Source: Gammaproteobacteria bacterium (GTDB lineage: Bacteria > Pseudomonadota > Gammaproteobacteria > Nitrococcales > Nitrococcaceae). Taken from it: a DNA stretch of 64,000 bases. Below are positions 6,247 to 59,098 of the stretch, one piece after another; the first letter of the stretch is position 1; each line of letters opens with the position of its first letter. The notes below the pieces were generated by a model. That model was not told the origin of the DNA. It did no database searches and saw only the letters and a list, made by a program, of their open reading frames with translations. The stretch is from the NCBI GenBank assembly GCA_030433275.1, contig JAUILK010000002.1:1-64000 (forward strand), written 5' to 3'. A program made the translations under genes and the position numbers.

Positions 6247-6713
6247 GCACGCCGCGGCGCAACCCATTCCGGGGATTTTTCGACATCATGAGCGAGATGA
6301 ACCGCTTGCAACATCAATGGATGTCACGCCGGGAATCAAAGCCGGCCGAGCAAATCAGGACAGCGGCCACCGCATGGGTTCCACCCGCCGATATTTTCGC
6401 CCGGCGTGGCGATCTGGTGATCTGCTGCGAACTCGCCGGATTAACGCGCGCAGACGTGGACGTCACCATCGCCAATGGAGTGCTAACCATCTCCGGTGTG
6501 CGTCAGCGCAAACCGGATGAAGAAAACAACATCACATACTACACTCAAGAACGCTTCCACGGCCCTTTTCGCCGGAGTATGGTGCTACCCGAGGGAATCG
6601 GTAAAAATAACATTACCGCCCACTTCGACAATGGCCTGCTGGAAATCGTCCTCAAAAACGGAGCGGCCGAGGCACCGCAGCACATCGATATCGAAACACG
6701 TAATCAAGCTTAG
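6243..6713 (+). CDS. Hsp20/alpha-crystallin small heat shock protein
   Basis: A 156-residue ATP-independent holdase. After a short variable N-terminus, the alpha-crystallin domain starts at WVPPADIFARRGDLVICCELAG and carries the typical NGVLTISG strand, ERFHGPFRRSMVLP and the FDNGLLEIVLKN closing segment. It overlaps the transporter gene by four bases, linking a chaperone with an osmolyte transporter in one stress transcript. Its stop lies only 31 bases from the leader-distal end of the CRISPR array, which is transcribed towards it. Confidence 0.92.
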   Translation: MSTPRRNPFRGFFDIMSEMNRLQHQWMSRRESKPAEQIRTAATAWVPPADIFARRGDLVICCELAGLTRADVDVTIANGVLTISGVRQRKPDEENNITYYTQERFHGPFRRSMVLPEGIGKNNITAHFDNGLLEIVLKNGAAEAPQHIDIETRNQA

Positions 6714-6744
6714 CGTGCGACTCGTGCTCAACGCAAAGCAAGCA

Positions 6745-8213
6745 TTGCTGAGCTGCCTATGCGGCAGCGCACGTATATCGGGAGCTGGCGCAGGAGGCGG
6801 CGGATTTCTGAGCTGCCTATGCGGCAGCGAAACGCGATCGTCGGCGAGGTGCCGGTGCACGCCTTTTCTGAGCTGCCTATGCGGCAGCGAACTCGCTCTG
6901 AGCAGCGCCTGCTCCTGCGGGCTCTTTCTGAGCTGCCTATGCGGCAGCGAACCGCATGACATCCTGGACGAGGGCGTCGAGCTTTTTCTGAGCTGCCTAT
7001 GCGGCAGCGAACAAGCGCGCGGTGGTCTCGCTGACGCCTTACATTTTCTGAGCTGCCTATGCGGCAGCGAACGGCGATAACGGCAGCGGCTATGCCCGCC
7101 CGCTTTTCTGAGCTGCCTATGCGGCAGCGAACTGTGAGACGGAGCGTGAACTGATCGACGCGCTATTTCTGAGCTGCCTATGCGGCAGCGAACTTGTCCG
7201 GCGTGGGCCAAGCGGCGTCGGGTCATTTCTGAGCTGCCTATGCGGCAGCGAACGACGATCTGCTTGAATACTTGCAAGAGAATCCTTTCTGAGCTGCCTA
7301 TGCGGCAGCGAACGATTTCCCTGTTGTTATTCTCGTCAACAGCGTTTTCTGAGCTGCCTATGCGGCAGCGAACAGCGAATGAAGAAGATCAGGACGAAGT
7401 GAACCTTTCTGAGCTGCCTATGCGGCAGCGAACCGAGCGCACGCGCGGACTTGCGGTGTCAAATCTTTCTGAGCTGCCTATGCGGCAGCGAACTCACGAC
7501 CACGCGACCACCAGCCGCGCAATGTTTTCTGAGCTGCCTATGCGGCAGCGAACGCTAATGACGAGGTCTTGCGGCTGCAGCGCGTTTCTGAGCTGCCTAT
7601 GCGGCAGCGAACGGCGTCAGCGAGACCACCGCGCGCTTGAAAGTTTTCTGAGCTGCCTATGCGGCAGCGAACCGAGTTCAATCGCGCAATCTACTTTCCC
7701 CATTTTTCTGAGCTGCCTATGCGGCAGCGAACGTTGTCGATGGTCACCCGTATCTGCGGCAGCTTTTCTGAGCTGCCTATGCGGCAGCGAACGTACCGAA
7801 TCACGCGCTCGGCGGTGGGGTGACTTTCTGAGCTGCCTATGCGGCAGCGAACTACGCTTATCCTCAGCGCGGCAACCGTGTTCGTTTCTGAGCTGCCTAT
7901 GCGGCAGCGAACATTGGATTACGCTTGAATATGGCTTGGTTAACTTTCTGAGCTGCCTATGCGGCAGCGAACGTTCTCTCTATTTTGCTCTGCTTTGTTT
8001 CCCTTTTCTGAGCTGCCTATGCGGCAGCGAACGTTGACCGTCCGGATCTGTTCGCCCGGCTTCATTTCTGAGCTGCCTATGCGGCAGCGAACGGGAAGGC
8101 GGCATTGAGAAAGCCGCTGCGAAAGTTTCTGAGCTGCCTATGCGGCAGCGAACCAAGGTCGTTGTCCGGTCTGGCTCGAATACCATTTCTGAGCTGCCTA
8201 TGCGGCAGCGAAC
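6745..8213 (-). CRISPR. Type I-F CRISPR array, 25 repeats and 24 spacers
   Basis: Twenty-five 28-base repeats that on the plus strand begin TTTCTGAGCTGCC and end GGCAGCGAAC; the reverse complement (GTTCGCTGCC ... CTCAGAAA) is the type I-F crRNA repeat with a CTGCC/GGCAG hairpin stem. Spacers are 32 bases in 21 cases, 33 in two and 31 in one. The two leader-distal repeats are degenerate: the repeat at 6745 differs at two positions and that at 6805 at its last base. This, with repeat polarity and cas gene order, puts the leader at the right and transcription on the minus strand. Apparent proteins with repeating LSCLCGSE, ELPMRQRT or SLPHRQLR are translations of the array. Confidence 0.98.
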
Positions 8214-8341
8214 TAGATCAAAAAAAGCCTAATCACCTAATTATTAACGAGCAGCATTGCTGACGAGCAGTTTATCCAAAATGCGATCTAGCCAGTAACT
8301 ATTTGATTTACAAAACCATGCACACCGATCTAAAAAAAGGG
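8214..8341 (-). promoter_or_regulatory. CRISPR leader with IHF-type sites
   Basis: The 128 bases between the array and cas6f are A+T-rich, as expected of a leader with promoter and integration signals. On the minus strand 8296-8308 reads AATCAAATAGTTA, a perfect match to the IHF consensus WATCARNNNNTTR. A second site with one mismatch lies on the plus strand at 8231-8243, 18-30 bases from the first repeat. Type I-F adaptation needs IHF-bent leader DNA, so a proximal and a distal site fit. Direct repeats CGAGCAG flank AGCATTGCTGA near 8253. Confidence 0.7.
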
Positions 8342-8905
8342 TTAGAACCATGGGACCGTGGCGCCTGCACTTAAACCAAAACTATTGAACATACCGGGAA
8401 TCGGCGTGTCCTCCGGCGGCGAATGTTCGACAAAGAGGCAAAAAGTTTGTCCTGTGCTGCGGCTGCGCAGTCGCAGAAACGGCAAACCAACTCTGCGCTC
8501 TACCGAAGCGGGAATGCGCTCGCACGCCTCCTCCCAGTGCACCTTATGTCGCTTCGCGTAGCGACGACGCAAGCGATCTACATTGGTTTTAGGCTGAACA
8601 CGGCGGACCACACGATGTTTAGCCGTTTGAGGAGGGATCAAGAGATCACCGGTGCGTACGTAATCCCGCATACCCTTCAGCCAGCACCGAGACATGAGTA
8701 CTTCAAGACGCTCCGCGGCTCCATGGAGGCGGAGGTGCCCACCCAGGCTGCGCTGCTCGTGCCGAACCGCAGGAAAGCTTATCCCGACAGAGCGCTCGGC
8801 GGCTTCGACCAACATCCGATGCAGCTTGCCGCACAGCGCATTCATAAGGATAGGGCTTGGGAACTCGGGATCCGGGAGCAAATAAATGTCCAAGTAATGC
8901 ATCAT
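8342..8905 (-). CDS. cas6f: Cas6f/Csy4 crRNA-processing endoribonuclease
   Basis: Cuts the I-F pre-crRNA at the base of each repeat hairpin and stays bound as the head of the Csy complex. The 187 residues align with Pseudomonas Csy4 from MMHYLDI to the GATVPWF C-terminus. The general base His is at residue 29 in CGKLHRML, and the catalytic Ser lies in LRSRSTGQTF. The Arg-rich helix that reads the RNA major groove is present (VDRLRRRYAKRH). It is the last gene of the cas operon, three bases after csy3, and abuts the leader. Confidence 0.95.
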   Translation of the reverse strand: MMHYLDIYLLPDPEFPSPILMNALCGKLHRMLVEAAERSVGISFPAVRHEQRSLGGHLRLHGAAERLEVLMSRCWLKGMRDYVRTGDLLIPPQTAKHRVVRRVQPKTNVDRLRRRYAKRHKVHWEEACERIPASVERRVGLPFLRLRSRSTGQTFCLFVEHSPPEDTPIPGMFNSFGLSAGATVPWF

Positions 8906-8908
8906 GGC

Positions 8909-9943
8909 TCAGTCCTTTTCGCCAAATACACCGCCGCGAATCAGGGTCGCCATGAGGTAATGCTGATTGCCTTCCTCGGGCACGCGGCCTTTGAGTACCC
9001 AAGCATCCAGAAGCGAATAGAAATCCACTTTCTGCTTGGGCTGTCTGTATGCCCGGCCTTGCGAGGTGACGGAGCCATAAGGCTCTACGGCAATCGGACC
9101 CAACCCCTCTTCGTCCGGATACCAAGTATCGACCGTACGAAGCGCGTTGCCGATTTTCTGACTGTGCATGGCCGCTGTCTCGCCCACGGTATAAAGCGTT
9201 TTACTCTTCTGGCCACGCCGGTCGCCCCGATCGAGAATCAGCTCTTGCGAAGGGAACACCTCCTGGCCGTCCCCAATACGCGCATAAGCGACGACCTCGA
9301 GCAGAATAAAGTGCCGCCCGGAAAGTCCGCTTTCGATCACTTCGGTCAGTTCGACGAGCGATTTCTCAGCCTGCCCCCGCGCCTCGAAACGCCGCAGCGG
9401 CAGCTCGAGCGCATCGAAGGCCCACTCCTGCGCCGCTTTACCGTCCTCGAGATGGCGAACGATCACCTCCACGTCCTCCGCACCGATGCGGTTACGCCAT
9501 AGAAAACGGCCATTGGCGAGATTGTGGGCATAGCGGCGGGCAAGCTCGCCGAATCCATACTCCGCAACATAGCCCTGAACCGTCTCGGCCAGTTTCTGCT
9601 GATATGCCGCGTTGTTACAGGCGGAAGGTACGCCGGCGCCGGCAAGCACGCGCAGTGTGAAGCGCACCCGCAGGGCATTGGCATCGTTCGGCAGGGTGCA
9701 GACATCCACGGTCTGCAGGTTGGGGTCTTGAATAGAGGCATCCAGCTTGGCCGGATCCTGCTCCTTTGTTTTAAGGCGGTTGGAAATCGTCCCACGCACG
9801 GACTTCTCACGAATTCCGACAGCAGGCCACCGTGCGCCGTTGCGGCGATCCTCCCAACGCCCGGCACTGAACAGCGCGTCGGAGGGATCCAGCTTGCGCT
9901 CGAAGGCAAGCACGGAGGCAGTTTTCAGCTCGTTTGCAGACAT
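8909..9943 (-). CDS. csy3: Csy3/Cas7f backbone subunit of the type I-F Cascade
   Basis: The 344-residue RNA-binding subunit, present in six copies along the crRNA in the Csy complex. The family is recognised from the opening [19 protein letters not shown] and the [23 protein letters not shown] segment. Length is normal for Csy3. It follows csy2 by 13 bases in the operon, and no damage is seen in the frame. Confidence 0.93.
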
Positions 9944-9956
9944 TGCGCGGCACTCC

Positions 9957-10937
9957 TTATATGTTGTTCTCTTCGCTTACGGCAGCGGAAAAATGATTGG
10001 CACACCGATACAGGCCCGTTTCGGGACAAGCCTCGTGATGCCACAGCAACTGCGTTGGATCATCCAATCGGTGTGGCCCCACCCATTCACCCACTGAGTA
10101 AATGCTCTCTACGAAGCGAAAAGGCGTGGCGTCATCGCGTGCATTCTCGACCTCGCCGGGCGCGTAGAGTTTGGACAAAGCGCGGTAGCCGATCGGAACG
10201 GGAACCAGCCAGCCGGGCGTACTGCGCACGCTCCAGCTCGCCTCATCGGCTTTGTCGGCAGTTGTGCTCGGTTCTATATTCAGTCGGCAGAGATCCAGGA
10301 GGGCATCCACAACGCTCGCCTCCGGCCGATCGATCCGCAGCGCCTGCAAGTGCTCGTGCAGCAGATCCTTTCGGTCGACCAATGCGAAACCGGGTAGCAA
10401 GCGGCGGCGCATTTTCCGAAACGTCTCGCGACGCTCCTGCCGCGTGTCCGGCAGACCCCACATCTCGGGCTCATGCCGATCTGATCCGTCACTCGCCCTG
10501 GAGCGGGGCAAAATGCTGCCGCCGGCCAGCCGCATGCCCTCGGCGTGGCCCAGAATCTCCCGAGCGGTCCGTTTCTGCCGACCTTCGGTGCCCAGCTTTC
10601 CCGAGACCTCGACCAGCAGGCTGACTTCCATGTGCGCACGCCCTTCCTCCACGAAGGACGGCGGCTTTTCGTTCTTACCCAAAGGGTTCCGAGTCAGCCG
10701 GAACACCTGCGTCCGCCGCCCCGGCGGCTTGTATACTTGCGGGTCGAAGCGGTGGCAAATGATCCCTACTCCACCGAAGCTGATCTCCAGCGCGGCGGCC
10801 AGTCGGCGTTGCAGCGCGTGGACAAAACCGGTGAACGCCGATGGGGCCGGGAAACCCCAGCTCAGCGGCCCGGCTATGGCGTTCGCGTTCTGCACTCGGA
10901 GGCGTTTGAGCAATAGCAAAGCGCGGGTATCAGGCAT
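9957..10937 (-). CDS. csy2: Csy2/Cas5f subunit of the type I-F Cascade
   Basis: A 326-residue subunit that caps the 5' handle of the crRNA with Csy1. The opening [32 protein letters not shown] is typical of Csy2, as is [12 protein letters not shown]. Its start overlaps the end of csy1 by eight bases, showing translational coupling. The frame is intact and of usual length. Confidence 0.92.
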
Positions 10938-12335
10938 CGGCGGCCACCTCCTGCCTGATCATCCGAAGCTCCTTTTTCAACAAACCACGCCATTCGTGAT
11001 ACTCGTCATCGCCCATCGGCAAGCGACCCCCTCGGGTTAGCTGATAATTCAGCCAGTTGCCGAACCGCTTGGCGATCTCATCCGGCCAGTCTGCCTGGGC
11101 TCGACCAAGCGCGAATTCGGCGTCGTCCAACGCGCGGTAGGGGTCCAGCCAGTACTGCTCGACTGCATCCAGCCGACACGCCGGATCGACGCTCCAGCCC
11201 GGCTCAAGCTCGTGGAGCTCGGCGGCAACCTGCAGCAACTCGTCGCTGATGCGCTCCACCAGCACAGCACGGGTCTTGCGGATGGCGCGGTTGTTGTAGG
11301 CGCTCTTGGCGAGAAAATCACGCAAGGCGCCGGTCAGCTCTCGAAGCCGGTGCCGGCGGCGCAGCCAACCGGCAAACACAGTGGCCACGCCAAGCGGCGG
11401 TTTTGCTTGCAGACGCCAGCTCGGCGGCAACGAGGCCAGAAGATAGCTCTCCCCATGGCGCTCGGTGTTGATTGGCTGATGTTCTGCGGATTGCTGCCGC
11501 CGAAGTTCTGGATCGCCAGATTGGGGTATTCGCAGTAGCCGTGCGGGTGAGGTCTGTTATTCCATCGGGCGTCGCGTGCCTCACGGCTAGCCTGCGAAAA
11601 TCGGTCTTCGCGAATGCGGGTATAGACCGCATGCACGAGGCTGGTCGGATACAGCGGCGCCAACAAATGGTAGCCGCCGTTGGGCAAGGGCCAGTAGAGC
11701 TGCTTGGCGAGTTTGTGCGAGGCAGGCTGCTCCCGCTCTTGAGTAATGCCGGCAAAAGCGGCCATCCAACGCTCGCCCTGCTCATCGCTTTCGGACAACG
11801 CCGCCTTCAGAGCAGGATCGTTATCGCAGGCACGCCCCAACAGAGTCCGGCCACCCTGCTCGAGCTTCAGAAACTGATATACATCCAAATAAGCGGCATT
11901 GCCGACCACATCCGGAATGCAGGCCGCCTCACGCAAACTATGGGTGCCCACCAGGGTGTCTTCTGCCGGATCGGCAGCCGTTGCGTAAAGGCTGGTGCCA
12001 CGCGCATCCGGGTGGCTGTACTTCAGAGCGTGGGTCACGAGCTGGAGTTTTTTAACCCGCCGGACGGCATCCTCGATCCAGACCGGCGGCTGATGCTGAT
12101 CGATAAGCTTCTGGCGTTTTACATCCTCTCCTTCCTTTAGCTTTTCCAGCTTGGCCGTCAAGCGCTCCTGCAGGAACTCCTCAATGCGGGCTCGGAGGCC
12201 ATTGATTTCCTCTATATCCATTGCTGCTTGTGCCATACACTCCCCTACGACCGCGGAAACCAACCGCTGCGGATGTGTTTTTGTTAATTCCACTTCCACT
12301 CCGAAGCCCAACGCTCCGGACAGCTTAATGCTCAT
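10930..12335 (-). pseudogene. csy1: Csy1/Cas8f large subunit, broken by a one-base frameshift
   Basis: Csy1 recognises the PAM and starts R-loop formation. The first part is in frame from 12335 to near 11471 and ends in the conserved YPNLAIQNFGGSNPQNISQ. The protein then continues in another frame as NTERHGESYLLASLPPSWRLQ through to KKELRMIRQEV at 10930. Restoring one base near 11470 would give a single product of about 468 residues, normal for Csy1. As written, translation ends after about 333 residues with a foreign tail. Flanking overlaps with cas2-3 (four bases) and csy2 (eight bases) are intact, so the lesion is recent, programmed or a sequencing error. Confidence 0.88.
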
Positions 12336-15300
12336 CTATAACGGCTGAATCCAAGCGCCGGGTGGTAAAACCAACCTTGCTCGGTGCCCTTCTTCGGCAG
12401 TTCGATGGTGCCAAAGCGACGGGCTGCATCTGTTGGATCAAGCTCAAGCTCCGTTGCAAGCCGCTCGAGCAACTCCGAGAAATCGTCCGTGTCCCAGATG
12501 CCGACACCCACCCCACTCTCGAACGCCAGCTCATGCAAATGCGAGTCGGTTACCCGGATTGCGACACCGTCTCGCTCGATCCGGCAGAAATCCAACCCCT
12601 CTTCGTCTTCGCGCGGCAGGAGCATATAAAGCTGCCGGCCCCGCGGATCATCGCGAAACGGCTGCTGGCGTTGCAGCTCGCCGGTCAAGGCCGCCTGAGT
12701 GGTCCACCACCAATGGGTCGGGGCGATCCGCAGCTCTTCACCCGAGCGCTCGCCAAGCAATAGAGCGCGGAGGCATTCGTGCTCCAGGTCAACCAGATTA
12801 TCTCGTGGCTGTAAAACCGCCCGCTCACGGATCCGGGCACCGGAATCGATCACCTGCCACTGCTCCGGCGTGAGAAGCTCGTTCAGCCGATGGCTGCGCA
12901 GGGGAAACTCCTTGCTCTCAAATCCAGGGCGGCAGAAGGCGGGCTCGTTCGATCCTTTTTCGAGGGCTCGAACATTGGTGCCCAGCAAATAGACGTTCGG
13001 CTCGGTGCACACGCCGAAACGGTGGCGCCGGACCCGGCCGGCGAGCTGGATTATGGAGCGCATCGAGGAGGGCTCGACGATCGCCCAATCATAATCGTGG
13101 TCGCGCCCGACTTCGGCCACCGCTGTCGCCAGGACGACGAAGACATGGTCGTCTTCCTGCGTATCGATCTGTGCCTGCAATTCCGGATCATTAAAAATCC
13201 GATCCGGCTCCTGGCGATTCAGCATCCGATCAAGACGTTGCTCTATGGCCGAGCGCACGAGCAACGGGTATTGGGCGTGGTAACAGCACAGATGGACCCG
13301 ATAGCCGGCTTTTGCGCCCATTCCATGGAGCGTTCGCGCTACACTCACCAGCGGGTCGATATTGGCCATGCGCACGAGGCCAAAGCTCACACGCTTGCCG
13401 GTATCCGGATCTTGAGTGTGGTGCTGAGCATGTAGTGTGTGCAGCGCTTGATGAACGAACTCCGCGACTCCCGCACAAATCTCGTCATGTCGATGCGATG
13501 TTACCGGCAGCGGCTTGATCGCCGCCTTGCGCCGCACCTCCGCTTGGGAGAGCCTGCGCAAGCGCCGATCAACGAACGCGGTGTGAGAATCGAGAAACGT
13601 AGCCTTATCGGCGTGGTCCGCCGCGGTTGCCGCAAACTCGTCAAACCACGCACAGCAGACGTTCAGCGGCTGCCCCGGAATGCCCCGATTTTGCTGGTAG
13701 CCGCCCCGTCCTTCCAGGTAAGCATCGAACAATCCCTGCACCAACGCGGGCGGAAGAGTTGCCGAGGACAGCAGCACCCGGCTACCTAATAGCCCGGCCC
13801 AATAAACCAGGCGCGTCAGCGCAGGCAGATCCTCCAGGCCGAAATCATCCGGCTCGTCCAGCACCAGATCGGAGCTCATCAGCCGCAGCATCGGAGCGAT
13901 CTGATGGCCACCGCGCGTCCCCTCGGTCGCCGGCATCAAATGATCGATGGTGCAAACTAAGATAGGGGCATTGAGCAGGCCTTGCGCCCGAGGGTTCGTG
14001 CCGAGCCATCGATTGAGCGGCCCATCCTCCAAGCTGCCCTCGAAGTGCACATAGCCACCGTCTGCCAGCAACGCCTCCGCCGATTCCGAGCCTGCCGCAG
14101 CTAGCGGTCCTTCCTCCTCTGCCCGACTGCGCTCGTGGAGCTCACGCACGGCGCTCGATCCGACGAGAACCGCCAAATCCTCCGCGCCCAGACCCAATCG
14201 CTCCCGATAAGCATCACCCGTTTGCAGCGTGAGAGTACGCAGACCCAGCGCGATCGAAAAACGGGCGCCGCGCTGCGGGTTGGACAGCCCATAGAGGATT
14301 CGGCCGTTGGCGAGCGTCTTGCCACAGCCGGTAGAGGCCATATCAACGCCGAAAAAACCCTGCCGCGCGGACCGGACTCGCAGCCCACAGGCCAGATCAT
14401 AAGCACGATCCTGCCAACGGAATCGCGGCTCCTTGGTACGTCGTCGAAAACCCTTGTGCCGAGCGATACGAGGCAGGACGCGCTCCAAGCGCGGCAGCGC
14501 CCGCATAATTCGCCCTGCATTGACCTCGACCCCGATCAAGTGCTCATCGAGCCGCTGCTTGGGCGCACCGTCCTGGGTGTTCGCAAACAGCAAGTAGCCC
14601 GTATCCCCGTAGCGCGGAAGGCTCGGCCCGGAGGAATAGTAGTGATCCGCGAGCATCAGCGCCAAGCGCGCCACATGCAGCGCGAACGGATTGGCAAGCC
14701 ACTGCTCACCAGCTTGCACCATTCCCGGCCGCGCCAGAATGCGTTCGGCCAAACGGACGGCATGTCGGCACCAGCTCTTGCTCTGGAAAGGGAGTCCTTT
14801 GTCGAACGCCCACGTATCTTTCTTCGCCTGCTTGCCATCCGCCCTTGCAGAGGAATTCCAATTCGGCTCGATGCACTCCAGCACGGCTCCAAGCTGCGCG
14901 TGCGAAAGTGGGGCGGCCCCGTATTCTCGGGCAGGCAATCGGTGGTGGGTGAGCACCAGCCAGCCTACCGCCTTTGCGAGCGGCGGCATGCCATCGAATG
15001 GGCTGTCGCAAGCATCATCGTCCAACCCGTCGCGAAGCAGGTTATCCAGCCAGGCGGTATCCGGCCGGTGCGCGAGATCGGCGAGGCGGGCGAGCCACTT
15101 TCGATCATCCGATGCCGACCCAACGAATGCCTGGAAAAGCCGCAGCGATACCCATTCATGACGGTAGGCATCCGCTACGGGCTTATGGCTGCGGAGCTTT
15201 TTCTGAAACGCCCGGTTCGCTTTGCCCAAATCATGGAACAAGGCACCCAGGGAAGAGAGCAGGCGCATTTCTTCACCGGTATGCCAGTCATTCTCATCGC

Positions 15301-15601
15301 GACTGCGCAGGACATCGCCCTCGGTCCTATTCGTGGGCGCCGCGCCCTGCGCGCTGAAGCGGCTTGCATCGCCGACGATCCACAGCAATTCACTGTAGTC
15401 CCGTCCTCGGATCCAGTGACACGCCACGGCCGTATTCTTACGTGCCGTTTGACGCAACAAGCGATGCAAAATCAGCAAGCCCGCCTGGGTGATCGGTGTC
15501 TGCCAAGTCCTTGCACCACGGCGCTGCGCGAACTGATCGAGAATACGCCGCGTCTGCGCGAGCGCATTTTTCGTGCACTCGGCGATCAGCAACACATTCA
15601 T
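12332..15601 (-). CDS. cas3: Cas2-Cas3 fusion nuclease-helicase of type I-F
   Basis: A 1089-residue fusion found only in type I-F: an N-terminal Cas2-like domain (about 1-95) for spacer integration with Cas1, then an HD nuclease and SF2 helicase that degrade target DNA. The HD motif is ALFHDLGKAN (His123-Asp124); Walker A is STGCGKT near 424; the DEAD-like box is VLDEPDDF near 582; motif VI is QLAGRVRRHRFG near 855. It overlaps cas1 and csy1 by four bases on either side. The reading frame is open throughout. Confidence 0.95.
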   Translation of the reverse strand: MNVLLIAECTKNALAQTRRILDQFAQRRGARTWQTPITQAGLLILHRLLRQTARKNTAVACHWIRGRDYSELLWIVGDASRFSAQGAAPTNRTEGDVLRSRDENDWHTGEEMRLLSSLGALFHDLGKANRAFQKKLRSHKPVADAYRHEWVSLRLFQAFVGSASDDRKWLARLADLAHRPDTAWLDNLLRDGLDDDACDSPFDGMPPLAKAVGWLVLTHHRLPAREYGAAPLSHAQLGAVLECIEPNWNSSARADGKQAKKDTWAFDKGLPFQSKSWCRHAVRLAERILARPGMVQAGEQWLANPFALHVARLALMLADHYYSSGPSLPRYGDTGYLLFANTQDGAPKQRLDEHLIGVEVNAGRIMRALPRLERVLPRIARHKGFRRRTKEPRFRWQDRAYDLACGLRVRSARQGFFGVDMASTGCGKTLANGRILYGLSNPQRGARFSIALGLRTLTLQTGDAYRERLGLGAEDLAVLVGSSAVRELHERSRAEEEGPLAAAGSESAEALLADGGYVHFEGSLEDGPLNRWLGTNPRAQGLLNAPILVCTIDHLMPATEGTRGGHQIAPMLRLMSSDLVLDEPDDFGLEDLPALTRLVYWAGLLGSRVLLSSATLPPALVQGLFDAYLEGRGGYQQNRGIPGQPLNVCCAWFDEFAATAADHADKATFLDSHTAFVDRRLRRLSQAEVRRKAAIKPLPVTSHRHDEICAGVAEFVHQALHTLHAQHHTQDPDTGKRVSFGLVRMANIDPLVSVARTLHGMGAKAGYRVHLCCYHAQYPLLVRSAIEQRLDRMLNRQEPDRIFNDPELQAQIDTQEDDHVFVVLATAVAEVGRDHDYDWAIVEPSSMRSIIQLAGRVRRHRFGVCTEPNVYLLGTNVRALEKGSNEPAFCRPGFESKEFPLRSHRLNELLTPEQWQVIDSGARIRERAVLQPRDNLVDLEHECLRALLLGERSGEELRIAPTHWWWTTQAALTGELQRQQPFRDDPRGRQLYMLLPREDEEGLDFCRIERDGVAIRVTDSHLHELAFESGVGVGIWDTDDFSELLERLATELELDPTDAARRFGTIELPKKGTEQGWFYHPALGFSRYR

Positions 15602-16575
15602 GCGAGCCTTCCCCCAACGCGCGCCGCCACCGCCTTGGTCGTATCAATCATAAAATCCAGACATTCCGTGCGGGTGAGGCTCTCGATGCAGGCCTGCCGA
15701 AACTCCTGTTCCTCATCGCCGCGCATGGCCGAGATAAACGCATGCGGGAGAATGACCGCATCCTTGATGAGATCGGCCACGTCGAAAACAAGCCCACCTC
15801 GGCGCGTCTTGCCATGCAGGACCGCAAGGCCATGGGGCAACCCCAACACCCACGTGGCGGTCGCCCCGAGCCCATAGGCCAGATAATTACCGTGGTCAAG
15901 AAAACGATTGGCCGGATCCACGCCCGTGCCTTTTTTGGCGCGCGTGAACTGACCGTAACTCACCGCGCGAGCCGCCATCTTGAAAAGCCGTTTGGTAAGC
16001 CTGGCCTCCAATGTCAATAACGCGGCCGTGTCCTCGACTTGCTCGATCGCGGAGCGAGTACACACAAGGGTTTCCTGAAGAACATCGGCGGACACGGAAA
16101 AACCCAGATCGCGCAGAATGCGGCTGCTCGTCCAATGAGCCTCGATGCGTTCCAGTCGGGCTATTTGGAAGAGCTTGGCCGCTTCCAGGCGCCGTGCGTC
16201 GTCGAACCAAAAACGCACCCATCGCTGCAGGTATTCGGTCGGCCGATATTCGCTTTGAGGTGTGAGCCAGGCCACCTCGATATCGACCTCGTTGGCCATG
16301 AATAGCGGAGTCCCCCCGCCACCGCAGAAGCCGACTAGAACTCCTGCCTTAGCGAGCTCACGAACCGCCGCCTGAGTAATGGAAGTACCGGTCCCCAGCA
16401 AGAGAGAAGTGGTATTGGCAATCGGAATGTTCCAATAAAGTGATTGTTTGCCTTCATCTGTCACGTACTCGACCCGGCCACCATTTACGAGGACACGGCA
16501 ATGCTCCAGGTAATAGAGATTGGCTCGCTTGGAGTGCAAAATGGCCTTCAGATCAGAAGCCTTGATTTCGTTCAC
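15598..16575 (-). CDS. cas1: Cas1 integrase of type I-F
   Basis: The 325-residue integrase that inserts new spacers at the leader end together with the Cas2 part of Cas2-3. The opening ASDLKAILHSKRANLYYLEHCRVLVNGGRVEY and GSYG-like elements such as GVLVGFCGGGGTPLF are typical of Cas1f. The start is GTG at 16575 with GGGAG seven bases before it. It is the first gene of the operon; the promoter must lie in the 570 bases upstream. Confidence 0.95.
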   Translation of the reverse strand: MNEIKASDLKAILHSKRANLYYLEHCRVLVNGGRVEYVTDEGKQSLYWNIPIANTTSLLLGTGTSITQAAVRELAKAGVLVGFCGGGGTPLFMANEVDIEVAWLTPQSEYRPTEYLQRWVRFWFDDARRLEAAKLFQIARLERIEAHWTSSRILRDLGFSVSADVLQETLVCTRSAIEQVEDTAALLTLEARLTKRLFKMAARAVSYGQFTRAKKGTGVDPANRFLDHGNYLAYGLGATATWVLGLPHGLAVLHGKTRRGGLVFDVADLIKDAVILPHAFISAMRGDEEQEFRQACIESLTRTECLDFMIDTTKAVAARVGGRLA

Positions 16576-17148
16576 GCGCCACTCCCGTTACTTTAGTCGG
16601 TAGCGCCAGAGGTCTTCCCATGGCTGACTCGACGAGATATCACTCACGGCAGTCTAACTAGGCAGAATCATGGCAGGTGTGATTAGCGACGCAGTCTAGC
16701 AGTCGCGCTCAGCAGTTCTCACTGCCGACAGAAACGTTACAGCACACCGCGAACCTTCTCGCAATCGTGCTTTGAATTCCCTATGCTGTACTCCTTCCTG
16801 TGCGTTGTTGAACCATGAATACGGATGCAGAGCGAATGCAGCGCGTGTCGGGTATTCACGAAATTTGGGTGAACTGCCTGGCTCTAAATTGTTCTTACCC
16901 ACCCCAAGGCAACCGATCGATGATACAGGAAAGAATCCGGCCGATTACTCGAGCCGAAGGACGTACTGTCTCGCCCGTTTTACTTGGCTTTGCTCAATAC
17001 CCACTTTACCTGCTAGCACAATCAGCACCGCAAATCCGGTAAAGTTCAGATGTTTCGAGCAACAACCACACCAACAAGCAGGTGATGCCGCTATGACAAG
17101 CGGCTCGCCAATATCACGGCACCATTCTCATTTTCTAAGGAGTAGCAA
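16576..17148. other. Divergent control region between cas1 and the AsmA-like gene
   Basis: No gene supported in these 570 bases. The cas1-proximal part holds a near-perfect direct repeat, GCAGTCTAAC at 16649-16658 and GCAGTCTAGC at 16691-16700, 42 bases apart (four helical turns), a possible operator pair. At about 16718-16737 the plus strand reads GTTCTCACTGCCGACAGAAA, which resembles an I-F repeat with its loop deleted. AAGGAG precedes the AsmA-like start at the right end. Confidence 0.45.
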
Positions 17149-31276: not shown

Positions 31277-32158
31277 TCAGCTATCGGTTTCGTCCAGCAT
31301 CTTGACGGCGTTAGCCAGGCTGCGATGCATTCGGTTAAAGGACCGACCCAGCTGCGCGATTTCATCCCTGCCGCTCACCTCCAGTTCAGCGACATTCAAT
31401 GCCCCCATGCTGATTTCCGAGGCTTTGCGGGACATCACTTTCACCGGACGAATAATCACGTATTCCAGCATGATGTTCAGCAAAATCGCGACCAGCAAAA
31501 AAACCACCGCCAGCGCACCGATAAATACGAAAAACGTATTTTTCGCCCTATCGAGCGGTACCGACATGGGCACCGTAACGATCTGCGCACCAACGACCTC
31601 ACCTTGCTTCCAGCCGAACCCGTTGGCCGAGCCGTAGCTGTCGATCATTGTCGGCGGTGCCGTCGACGGTGCGCCATGGCAGGTCAAACAGGCCGGATTA
31701 GTAATCCTGATCGGCCGGCTCAGATACATGGCTGGTCCGGTCGCCGTGGAACGCACCCCGATGAGTTCCTTTTCCTCGCTGTTATTGCGGTACCAATTGA
31801 CGATATCCGCCTCCCAGGCGGTCGCCCGATCCACCGGATTGGTCGGATTCAAGGTGGCTTCTCGGTAGCTGTAATCCGGATACTTTTTCTGTAGCTGCTC
31901 GATGTACTTGCGTGCTCCGTAAGCTGGCACGGTCTGCGGCCGGAATGCGCGCTTTTGCTGCAACGCCAGCAAAGGCCGAATTTCCTCCACCGTGTATTGG
32001 CGCACCGACAACGCGCTTTGCAACATGATGCGGGCGGCATCAAGCACCTCGTCCCTGGCGTTCCGTTCGAGAAAGCGATAGCTGAAAAACGACGCCAAAC
32101 CGATCCCAACCAACATCGCAAGGCTCAGTACCAGATTGAATTTAAGTCGCAGACTCAT
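31277..32158 (-). CDS. Membrane sensor with periplasmic c-type heme domain (Tll0287/DUF3365-like) and HAMP
   Basis: A 293-residue inner-membrane protein. Helix 1 spans about 8-28; a periplasmic Tll0287/DUF3365-type domain follows, with one c-heme motif CLTCH at 157-161; helix 2 is about 207-231; a HAMP linker follows (IIRPVKVMSRKASEISMG ... DEIAQLGRSFNRMHRSL). It ends right after the HAMP with no methyl-accepting, kinase or cyclase output, so it must signal through a partner; the Ser/Thr kinase downstream is the obvious candidate. The heme may sense redox state, NO or O2. Confidence 0.85.
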   Translation of the reverse strand: MSLRLKFNLVLSLAMLVGIGLASFFSYRFLERNARDEVLDAARIMLQSALSVRQYTVEEIRPLLALQQKRAFRPQTVPAYGARKYIEQLQKKYPDYSYREATLNPTNPVDRATAWEADIVNWYRNNSEEKELIGVRSTATGPAMYLSRPIRITNPACLTCHGAPSTAPPTMIDSYGSANGFGWKQGEVVGAQIVTVPMSVPLDRAKNTFFVFIGALAVVFLLVAILLNIMLEYVIIRPVKVMSRKASEISMGALNVAELEVSGRDEIAQLGRSFNRMHRSLANAVKMLDETDS

Positions 32159-51890: not shown

Positions 51891-52288
51891 CAGATGTGTG
51901 GCTTTAGCCCAATCCAAAGCGGCCTACGAAATAATAAAAAATAACCAATCGCACCCCGATGGCCTCAAGAACAGAACGAAAAGAATACGCTGGCAGCATG
52001 CCCTCTTGCGCGCTACCACTGTGGAAATTATGCAACCATGGCCAAGTTATTAACCAGGCAATTAGGTACAGCGAATACCTAGGACCGCCACTGGCTGATG
52101 TTCAGCCTGGCTTATGACCCATATTTATTTGCCAGAGTAATATGTGAGACGGTTGCTTACCACAGTTGCTATCATGCAACCCTGCGTGCGTGTCCTGCCC
52201 GTGCAGGAAAACACTTGCCATGCAATCCCCCGGAAGCTCGGGGATTAATTAACCAAAACGTTTCCATAAACGAGGGAGTTGCTTGCCG
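51891..52288. other. Intergenic stretch before gpmA
   Basis: About 400 bases without a gene. It is more A+T-rich than its neighbours and contains an imperfect hairpin (AATCCCC near 52224 with GGGGATT near 52240) between a possible promoter region and the GAGGGAG ribosome site of gpmA. Confidence 0.4.
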
Positions 52289-57565: not shown

Positions 57566-58369
57566 TCAGCGCTCCGGTTCCTCTCGTTTAGCCTGCTGCC
57601 AAGCGGACTCTAGAATCTCAAGATTGGCGCCTGTCGTATCAATGCCGGCCTCACGCAGGATCGCTTCCAGGCGCCGGAAGCGCCGTTCGAACTTGGCGTT
57701 GGTGTGCCGCAGAGCCGCCTCGGCATCCACCTGCAGGTGACGGGCGAGGTTGGCGCAGGCGAACAGAACGTCCCCGAGCTCGTCCTCCAGCCGATCCTGC
57801 CCTGCACCGGCTTCGAGCTCGACCTCGAGTTCGGCGAGTTCCTCGCGAATCTTCTCCAGAACCGGTTGCGCTGTATCCCAATCGAACCCGACCCGAGCCG
57901 CACGCCGCTGCAGCTTGACCGCACGCGGCAATGCCGGTAGTGCGCGCGCGACGCCATCCAGAGCGCCCGACGGCACAGCCCCGTCCGGTTGCTTGGCGCG
58001 CCGCTCCTCGGCTTTAATCGCCTCCCAACTCCGATGCGGCTCCACCACATCCGGCCGCGCGGCGGTGCCGAACACGTGGGGATGGCGACGCACGATCTTA
58101 TCCGCGATCGCGGCCACGACTCCCTCGAAGTCAAAAGCACCACGCTCTTGCGCGAGTTGGGCATAAAAGACCACCTGAAACAGGAGGTCACCGAGTTCAT
58201 CACACAGCTCCGTCAGCTCGCCGGATTCGATGGTCTGCGCGACCTCGTAGGCTTCCTCCAACGTATGCGGCACAATGCTCTTGAAATCCTGCTCAAGATC
58301 CCAAGGACAGCCCGCAACAGGATCCCGCAGCCGCGCCATCAACGTAAGCAGTTGCTGCATATCGGCCAT
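57566..58369 (-). CDS. mazG: Nucleoside triphosphate pyrophosphohydrolase MazG
   Basis: A 267-residue house-cleaning enzyme that hydrolyses NTPs to NMPs. It has two MazG domains. The first carries CPWDLEQDFKSIVPHTLEEAYEV and ELCDELGDLLFQVVFYAQ, the second EIREELAELEVELE and DELGDVLFACANLARH, each with the EExxE and ExxD metal ligands. Length and layout match E. coli MazG. The GST gene lies 36 bases upstream on the same strand. Confidence 0.94.
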   Translation of the reverse strand: MADMQQLLTLMARLRDPVAGCPWDLEQDFKSIVPHTLEEAYEVAQTIESGELTELCDELGDLLFQVVFYAQLAQERGAFDFEGVVAAIADKIVRRHPHVFGTAARPDVVEPHRSWEAIKAEERRAKQPDGAVPSGALDGVARALPALPRAVKLQRRAARVGFDWDTAQPVLEKIREELAELEVELEAGAGQDRLEDELGDVLFACANLARHLQVDAEAALRHTNAKFERRFRRLEAILREAGIDTTGANLEILESAWQQAKREEPER

Positions 58370-58405
58370 ATCGTTTGCTCGTCCGGCCCGCCAAGCCGCC
58401 CGGTC

Positions 58406-59098
58406 TTAGTGGCACTGGTATTGGCGCTCACCGAAGAGCACCTGCTTGGCTTCCTCATCGAAACCCTTTTGCTCGCGAGCAGCGAGCACGCCCAAGCCTC
58501 GCTCCACGGCCGGGCGCTGCGCGATAGCATCGAACCAACGCCTCAGGTTTGGATGCTCAGTCAAATCTTGGCCCTGCCGTTCGTAGGGGCGAATCCAGGG
58601 AAACACGGCGATATCGGCGATGGTGTACTCCGGGCCCGCCAAAAACGCATCCTCCCCGAGTCGCTGTTCCAGCACCCGATAGAGCCGTGTGGTCTCGTTG
58701 GTATAGCGGTTGATCGCATAATCGATCCGCTCCGGAGCATATTGGCGAAAATGGTGTGCCTGGCCCAACATGGGTCCTAGATTGCCCATCTGAAACATTA
58801 GCCACTCGAGCGTACGATAACGCCCGTGTGGCTGCCTTGGCAGCAACCGTCCGGTTTTTTCGGCCAAATAGATCAGAATCGCCCCGGACTCGAACAGAGC
58901 AAACGGCTCATCGCCGGGTCCTTTCCGGTCCACTATAGCCGGAATTTTATTGTTGGGACTGATGCGCAGAAACTCCGCTTCGAACTGATCGCCCTTGCCG
59001 AGGTTCACCGGATGGATGCGGTAGTCCAAAGCCAGTTCCTCGAGTGCGATGTGCACTTTATGGCCGTTTGGTGTGGACCAGCTATAGACATCGATCAT
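58406..59098 (-). CDS. Glutathione S-transferase, YfcG/YghU-type disulfide-bond oxidoreductase
   Basis: A 230-residue GST. The thioredoxin-like N-terminus has [15 protein letters not shown] with the catalytic Ser/Thr-Asn, NKIPAIVD and [15 protein letters not shown] (glutathione site); the helical C-terminal domain holds [12 protein letters not shown]. The pattern matches YfcG/YghU enzymes, which reduce disulfides with glutathione. ATG at 59098 follows GGAG at seven bases; upstream residues are a shadow. Confidence 0.9.

Follow-up and report, generated by a model that had tools for sequence, protein, structure and literature searches.

Introduction

Type I-F1 (Csy) CRISPR systems have been described from Pseudomonas aeruginosa and Pectobacterium atrosepticum. 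According to the accessible part of one account, the C-terminal domain of the large subunit, Cas8f (Csy1), reorients upon full R-loop formation and is a probable hub for Cas2/3 loading (PMC7296934). The available portion of another states that target recognition and the recruitment of Cas2/Cas3 both depend on Cas5f and Cas8f, with Cas8f placed among the functionally necessary proteins (PMC10651486). A further system relevant to this study is that of Marinomonas mediterranea, in which, as the accessible text reports, a type III-B system makes use of type I-F crRNAs, depends on Cas6f for doing so, and keeps this capability when the type I-F cas1 and cas2-3 genes are deleted (PMC5576922). Nitrococcus mobilis itself appears by name in a figure legend on type III loci, in the part of that paper that was available (PMC7969007).

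The stretch of DNA analysed here, hereafter the window, comprises 64,000 nucleotides (G000:C104:1-64000) from the genome of a marine, nitrite-oxidising Nitrococcus, which has 3,414,347 bases in 104 contigs. The window carries a locus that resembles the type I-F1 systems of P. aeruginosa and P. atrosepticum in gene set, gene order, a 28-nt-repeat array and matches to six NCBIfam models. It differs from them in that csy1 lies in two reading frames, and in that the residue aligned with K247 is asparagine, both here and in the sister genome. On balance, we favour, with some reservation, the explanation that this is an ordinary type I-F1 locus whose csy1 recently lost one base. No description of this break was found in the accessible parts of the open-licence literature on Nitrococcus mobilis CRISPR or on type I-F cas8f frameshifts and pseudogenes.

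The type I-F operon and its array

The genes are arranged on the minus strand in the order cas1, cas2-3, csy1, csy2, csy3 and csy4, followed by the array. All of them except csy1 are full length, and their five products score above the NCBIfam cut-offs, in agreement with the preliminary description of an otherwise intact operon. The type I-F cas1 (15598-16575) encodes 325 amino acids (TIGR03637, E 6.8e-154) and has an omega of 0.093 against the sister, while cas2-3 (12332-15601; 1089 amino acids), which is intact here, covers positions 1-1109 of the 1110 in TIGR02562. Downstream of csy1, whose end is overlapped by the start of csy2 by 8 bases, are found the intact csy2 (cas5f; 9957-10937; TIGR02565, E 1.5e-95), csy3 (cas7f; 8909-9943; TIGR02566, E 1.2e-129) and csy4 (cas6f; 8342-8905; TIGR02563, E 6.7e-51). 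The region between csy4 and the first repeat (8214-8341) is a probable leader, as judged by its position and by the degenerate repeat that closes the array on the opposite side.

A repeat search placed the array, on the same strand, at 6745-8213, with 25 repeats of 28 nt and 24 spacers of 31-33 nt. Of these repeats 23 are identical, one has one mismatch and one has two, which bears out the 24 spacers and clean repeats noted earlier. With up to 3 mismatches allowed, the repeat occurs at 25 places in the genome, all of them within this array. The locus thus combines a type I-F Cas1 and a fused Cas2-3 with full-length Csy2, Csy3 and Csy4 and an array of about 28-nt repeats and 32-nt spacers. It is a type I-F1 locus by descent, incomplete as assembled, the Csy1/Cas8f large subunit not being in one frame.

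Spacers 10 and 20 (window 7013-7038 and 7613-7638) share 26 nt in opposite orientation, and so would represent two acquisitions from a single invader, made at one 38-bp site and from opposite strands. The shared core was found only in the array when the whole genome was searched with up to 3 mismatches, and it was absent from 19 relatives. Type I-F1 spacers are expected to match invaders beside a CC PAM. No true protospacer was recovered in seven scans of viral contigs, made with six single spacers and the core common to spacers 10 and 20 and so covering 8 of the 24 spacers. The core itself gave no match there, and the first 20 bases of the six single spacers matched for two spacers, in two contigs each. 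These matches were set aside as chance, given that 9 or 11 further bases differ. Against phages, spacer 10 showed weak matches, with E values of 0.3 or higher in the best 10 of 90.

A single base missing from csy1

An alignment of the DNA with the intact gene of the sister places the loss of one base between 11472 and 11471 on the minus strand, the exact position being the choice of the aligner. This confirms the earlier observation that csy1 is split near 11470 by one missing base. The open reading frame at 12335-11334 matches positions 2-222 of the 385 positions of the Csy1 model TIGR02564 (E 2.8e-68), and the one at 11430-10930 matches positions 229-384 (E 1.8e-33), extended to 214-384 in a six-frame search. 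The two are therefore adjacent parts of one Csy1 model, in the right order and in two frames. Chance is no issue for the split, given that the two halves belong to a single family, in the expected order, and that the frame of the sister stays open across the site. No second csy1 was found elsewhere in the genome, as the protein search gave one place and the family model two adjacent pieces.

The break falls directly after the PAM-recognition loop, and the native N-terminal part ends just past the motif GGSNPQNISQ. Its last native residue corresponds to about residue 253 of P. aeruginosa Csy1, as counted on the alignment (construct numbering minus two). The 5' part that remains in frame spans 11472-12236. 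After the break, 45 codons (11334-11471) are read before a stop at 11336-11334 closes the frame. The C-terminal domain is carried by the 3' part, which occupies 10930-11471 in the other frame; read from TTG 11430, this part matches residues 268-427 of the solved P. aeruginosa Csy1. The candidate codons for restarting translation in this part are TTG 11430, GTG 11388, GTG 11379 and TTG 11325, the last lying eight bases past the premature stop, and a good ribosome-binding site was seen at none of them.

The extent of the gene had been given as 10930-12335, and its end is retained. The start is likely at ATG 12236 rather than at 12335, because the sister carries an indel upstream, between 12335 and 12236, and because the ATG at 12236 is preceded by AGGGGAG. 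From this start, the product of the broken gene would be 255 native residues followed by 45 out-of-frame residues.

Csy1 in relatives and the PAM-wedge residue

The nearest named relative with a type I-F locus is the sister genome of the same genus, deposited as "MAG: Nitrococcus mobilis isolate mag.22" (G004; contig JAGFJL010000132.1), whose csy1 is intact in one frame and aligns with the present gene over its whole length at 90% DNA identity. The residues flanking the break site are likewise in one frame in all 37 other distinct homologues, a set that holds the best open reading frame per locus, with three duplicates dropped (L006, L023 and L028) and the Nitrococcus sister counted apart. The relatives, whose comparison had been proposed as a check, indicate that an open frame is to be expected here. 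In a class-wide sample, the TIGR02564 model was matched in 34 of 369 genomes, with partial matches in G258, at a contig end, and in G367, and weak ones in G151 and G348. A split csy1 is uncommon in this sample, and it is not unique. The one other csy1 split in this way in the sample, the degraded gene of G357, resembles the present one in having its Csy1 match distributed over two frames; it differs in having five in-frame stops in its first match, where here a single base is lost.

The PAM-wedge lysine of P. aeruginosa Csy1, K247, is replaced by asparagine in both Nitrococcus sequences (window 11472-11502, and the sister csy1 in L006), and both keep the asparagine at the position of N250. As the replacement is common to the sister, it predates the frameshift. 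It was considered as proof of non-function and rejected, given that 7 of the 37 other distinct homologues also have no lysine at this position (asparagine in three, and glutamate, aspartate, glutamine and alanine in one each), the remaining 30 having lysine. Judged by this spread of residues, the change from lysine to asparagine need not mean lost function.

The type I-F locus within Nitrococcus

Four other Nitrococcus genomes were compared. The sister is the only one with a type I-F locus, and neither a type I-F Cas3 nor a Csy1 match was found in the other three (G001, G002 and G003). In G001 the whole type I-F island (window 6705-17017) is absent, and the sequences flanking it (ends 6704 and 17018) stand about 75 bases apart. 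Because one of the four genomes has a split cas2-3 and three have no match, the locus has been gained, lost or broken within the genus. The arrays of the present genome (24 spacers) and of the sister (22 spacers) have an identical repeat and, by eye, no spacer in common; therefore both have changed spacers since the divergence.

The split in the sister results from a two-base indel after residue 163 of cas2-3, which leaves open reading frames of 178 and 946 amino acids (L015 near 11697, G004:C87). In both Nitrococcus type I-F loci, then, one interference gene is frameshifted, and this might suggest a repeated loss of type I-F within the genus. The sister break lends weak support to such a suggestion, an unrelated gene of that MAG being also interrupted by an indel, so that an error of the MAG is possible. 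That gene is the homologue of window gene 31280-32158, with an indel near codon 53 (L115 near 17440, G004:C85), and it is open here and in G001.

Recent mutation or assembly error

The substitution rates of csy1 bear on the age of the break. Against the sister, omega (NG86) is 0.147 for the N-terminal part and 0.235 for the C-terminal part, within the range of 0.076-0.237 of the other five cas genes, and a long decay of csy1 is rejected on this ground. Since these rates show no decay, the break appears to be either recent or an assembly error; a low omega would follow from a very recent loss as much as from an error, and so does not separate the two. As a driver of the loss, self-targeting was considered and not found. 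With up to 5 mismatches, the 24 spacers were compared with the window and about 140 kb of this genome beyond it, which left, once repeat-preceded matches were dropped, only spacers 10 and 20 matching each other; the search was thin, covering part of the genome for the 24 spacers and all of it for the core that spacers 10 and 20 share.

The explanation that survives best beside a true loss is that of a sequencing or assembly error, by which the strain would have an intact csy1 and a working type I-F system. This is a serious possibility, although we hold it to be somewhat short of an even chance. It fits a difference of only one base, an unrelaxed substitution pattern in csy1, the intactness of all other genes and of the array, and an assembly that is a draft of 104 contigs. 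Against it stands the site itself, since a direct reading of the sequence there reveals no homopolymer. The rest of the assembly also speaks against it, within a small sample (16,650 and 6,282 amino acids). No other mid-gene frameshift was found in 49 window open reading frames (16,650 amino acids) compared with the sister, and no clear one in 17 open reading frames (6,282 amino acids) around the type III-B locus described below, compared with G001. In this last set two lines were flagged: the N end of an open reading frame truncated where the compared stretch ends, and L067 19425-20000, an open reading frame that runs counter to the cas genes. A comparison of 41 open reading frames (13,263 amino acids) with G001 gave none either. 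Because no other mid-gene frameshift appeared among the compared frames, the assembly is not riddled with indels.

These comparisons set aside one antisense open reading frame, several N-terminal mismatches arising from upstream extensions of the frames, and frames derived from the array; 57704-58568 and 31280-32158 were the two examined closely. The apparent frameshift at 57704-58568 was rejected, being an antisense open reading frame across an intergenic gap. Taken together, we lean, by a modest degree, towards the loss of the csy1 base being a real mutation.

Consequences for type I-F function

If the base is truly lost, no complete Csy1 would be made, and without it the Csy complex would be unable to recruit Cas2-3, so that both interference and primed acquisition would be off. 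The proposal that interference is off stands to this extent: with one base gone, the PAM-reading subunit is divided, whereas the remaining operon and the array look intact, and the loss of interference is therefore likely if the base call is right. The upstream cas1 and cas2-3 should be unaffected by the break. The proposal that spacer acquisition could go on is disfavoured by published type I-F work, in which, going by the title of a 2015 paper by Vorontsova and others, all interference components are reportedly required.

Downstream of the break, ribosomes would stop about 400 nt before csy2, leaving the message untranslated unless they restart, for instance at TTG 11325, and this would make the expression of csy2-csy4 uncertain. 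Cleavage of pre-crRNA by Csy4 may persist, provided that csy2-csy4 escape such polarity. The earlier suggestion that crRNA processing continues is weakened, since it presupposes the expression of csy2-csy4 despite about 400 nt of untranslated message upstream.

A type III-B system in the same genome

Contig C57 of the same genome (G000:C57:17542-31885; L067 and L068) bears a complete-looking type III-B locus. Cas10b (968 amino acids), Cmr1, Cmr3, a RAMP protein in the Cmr4 position, Cmr5 and Cmr6 are encoded together, along with a Csx1-type CARF-HEPN protein, Csx16, a CARF protein (Cas_NE0113), Cas1 and a Cas6 match, and with an array of 7 copies of a repeat different from that of type I-F. 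G001 has a Cas10 that is 84% identical, and no Cas10 match was found in G002, G003 or G004.

The combination recalls that of M. mediterranea, which likewise holds type I-F and type III-B systems with unlike repeats in one genome; there, as far as the available text goes, type I-F is intact and the cross-use was demonstrated experimentally (PMC5576922), whereas here type I-F is broken and any cross-use would be conjectural. As a special case of a true csy1 loss, the type I-F array and Csy4 might supply guides to the type III-B complex while the DNA-cutting arm of type I-F is off. Effector genes of type III-B are present on contig C57 and would allow this, and the accessible part of the Marinomonas paper shows such use even when type I-F cas1 and cas2-3 are removed (PMC5576922). 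We regard it nevertheless as unlikely here, for the type III-B locus comes with a Cas6 of its own and with a separate array built on another repeat, G001 keeps type III-B with no type I-F match at all, and the expression of csy4 may suffer from polarity. Moreover, no Cas10 match was found in the sister, whose cas2-3 is broken, and this argues against type III-B being what keeps a broken type I-F locus in place.

Two further readings would rescue Csy1 itself. In the first, which is quite improbable, Csy1 would be functional as a split protein, both halves being translated, the second by re-initiation, and reassembling in the Csy complex. The position of the break is favourable to it, close to where the C-terminal part begins (the N-terminal part reaching to about residue 253 and the C-terminal frame covering 268-427 of P. 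aeruginosa Csy1), as is a TTG at 11325 so close behind the stop. The restart codons, all TTG or GTG, have, however, no good ribosome-binding site; a restart at 11325 would cost 35 more residues, the PAM loop would be followed by 45 foreign ones, and the arrangement is seen in none of the 37 homologue rows. In the second, programmed ribosomal frameshifting would yield a full-length Csy1, an alternative that had been raised before and that we reject as barely credible: the two frames do overlap in the right order, but the site, read directly, shows neither a slippery heptamer nor a homopolymer, and the sister and the other homologues, being in one frame, need no shift.

Significance of the locus

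The csy1 break is an ordinary, known kind of CRISPR decay, in a setting that is potentially useful as a test case. A real break would make this strain a natural carrier of two CRISPR systems, one disabled and the other complete-looking, and would let the use of type I-F guides by type III-B be tested with no need of a mutant. Should such cross-use prove true, the strain would be a natural version of the Marinomonas deletion result, its type I-F locus serving as a memory and a guide-RNA factory. If, instead, the assembly is in error, the change from lysine to asparagine at the K247 position and the type III-B partner remain as lasting points. The locus also warns against judging CRISPR activity from the presence of genes alone.

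Elsewhere in the window, at 52045-52143, lies a stretch of about 95 bases, with matches of 72-86% identity in nine further contigs of the genome. It is missing between two matching blocks in G004 and in G001, as expected of a short dispersed repeat.
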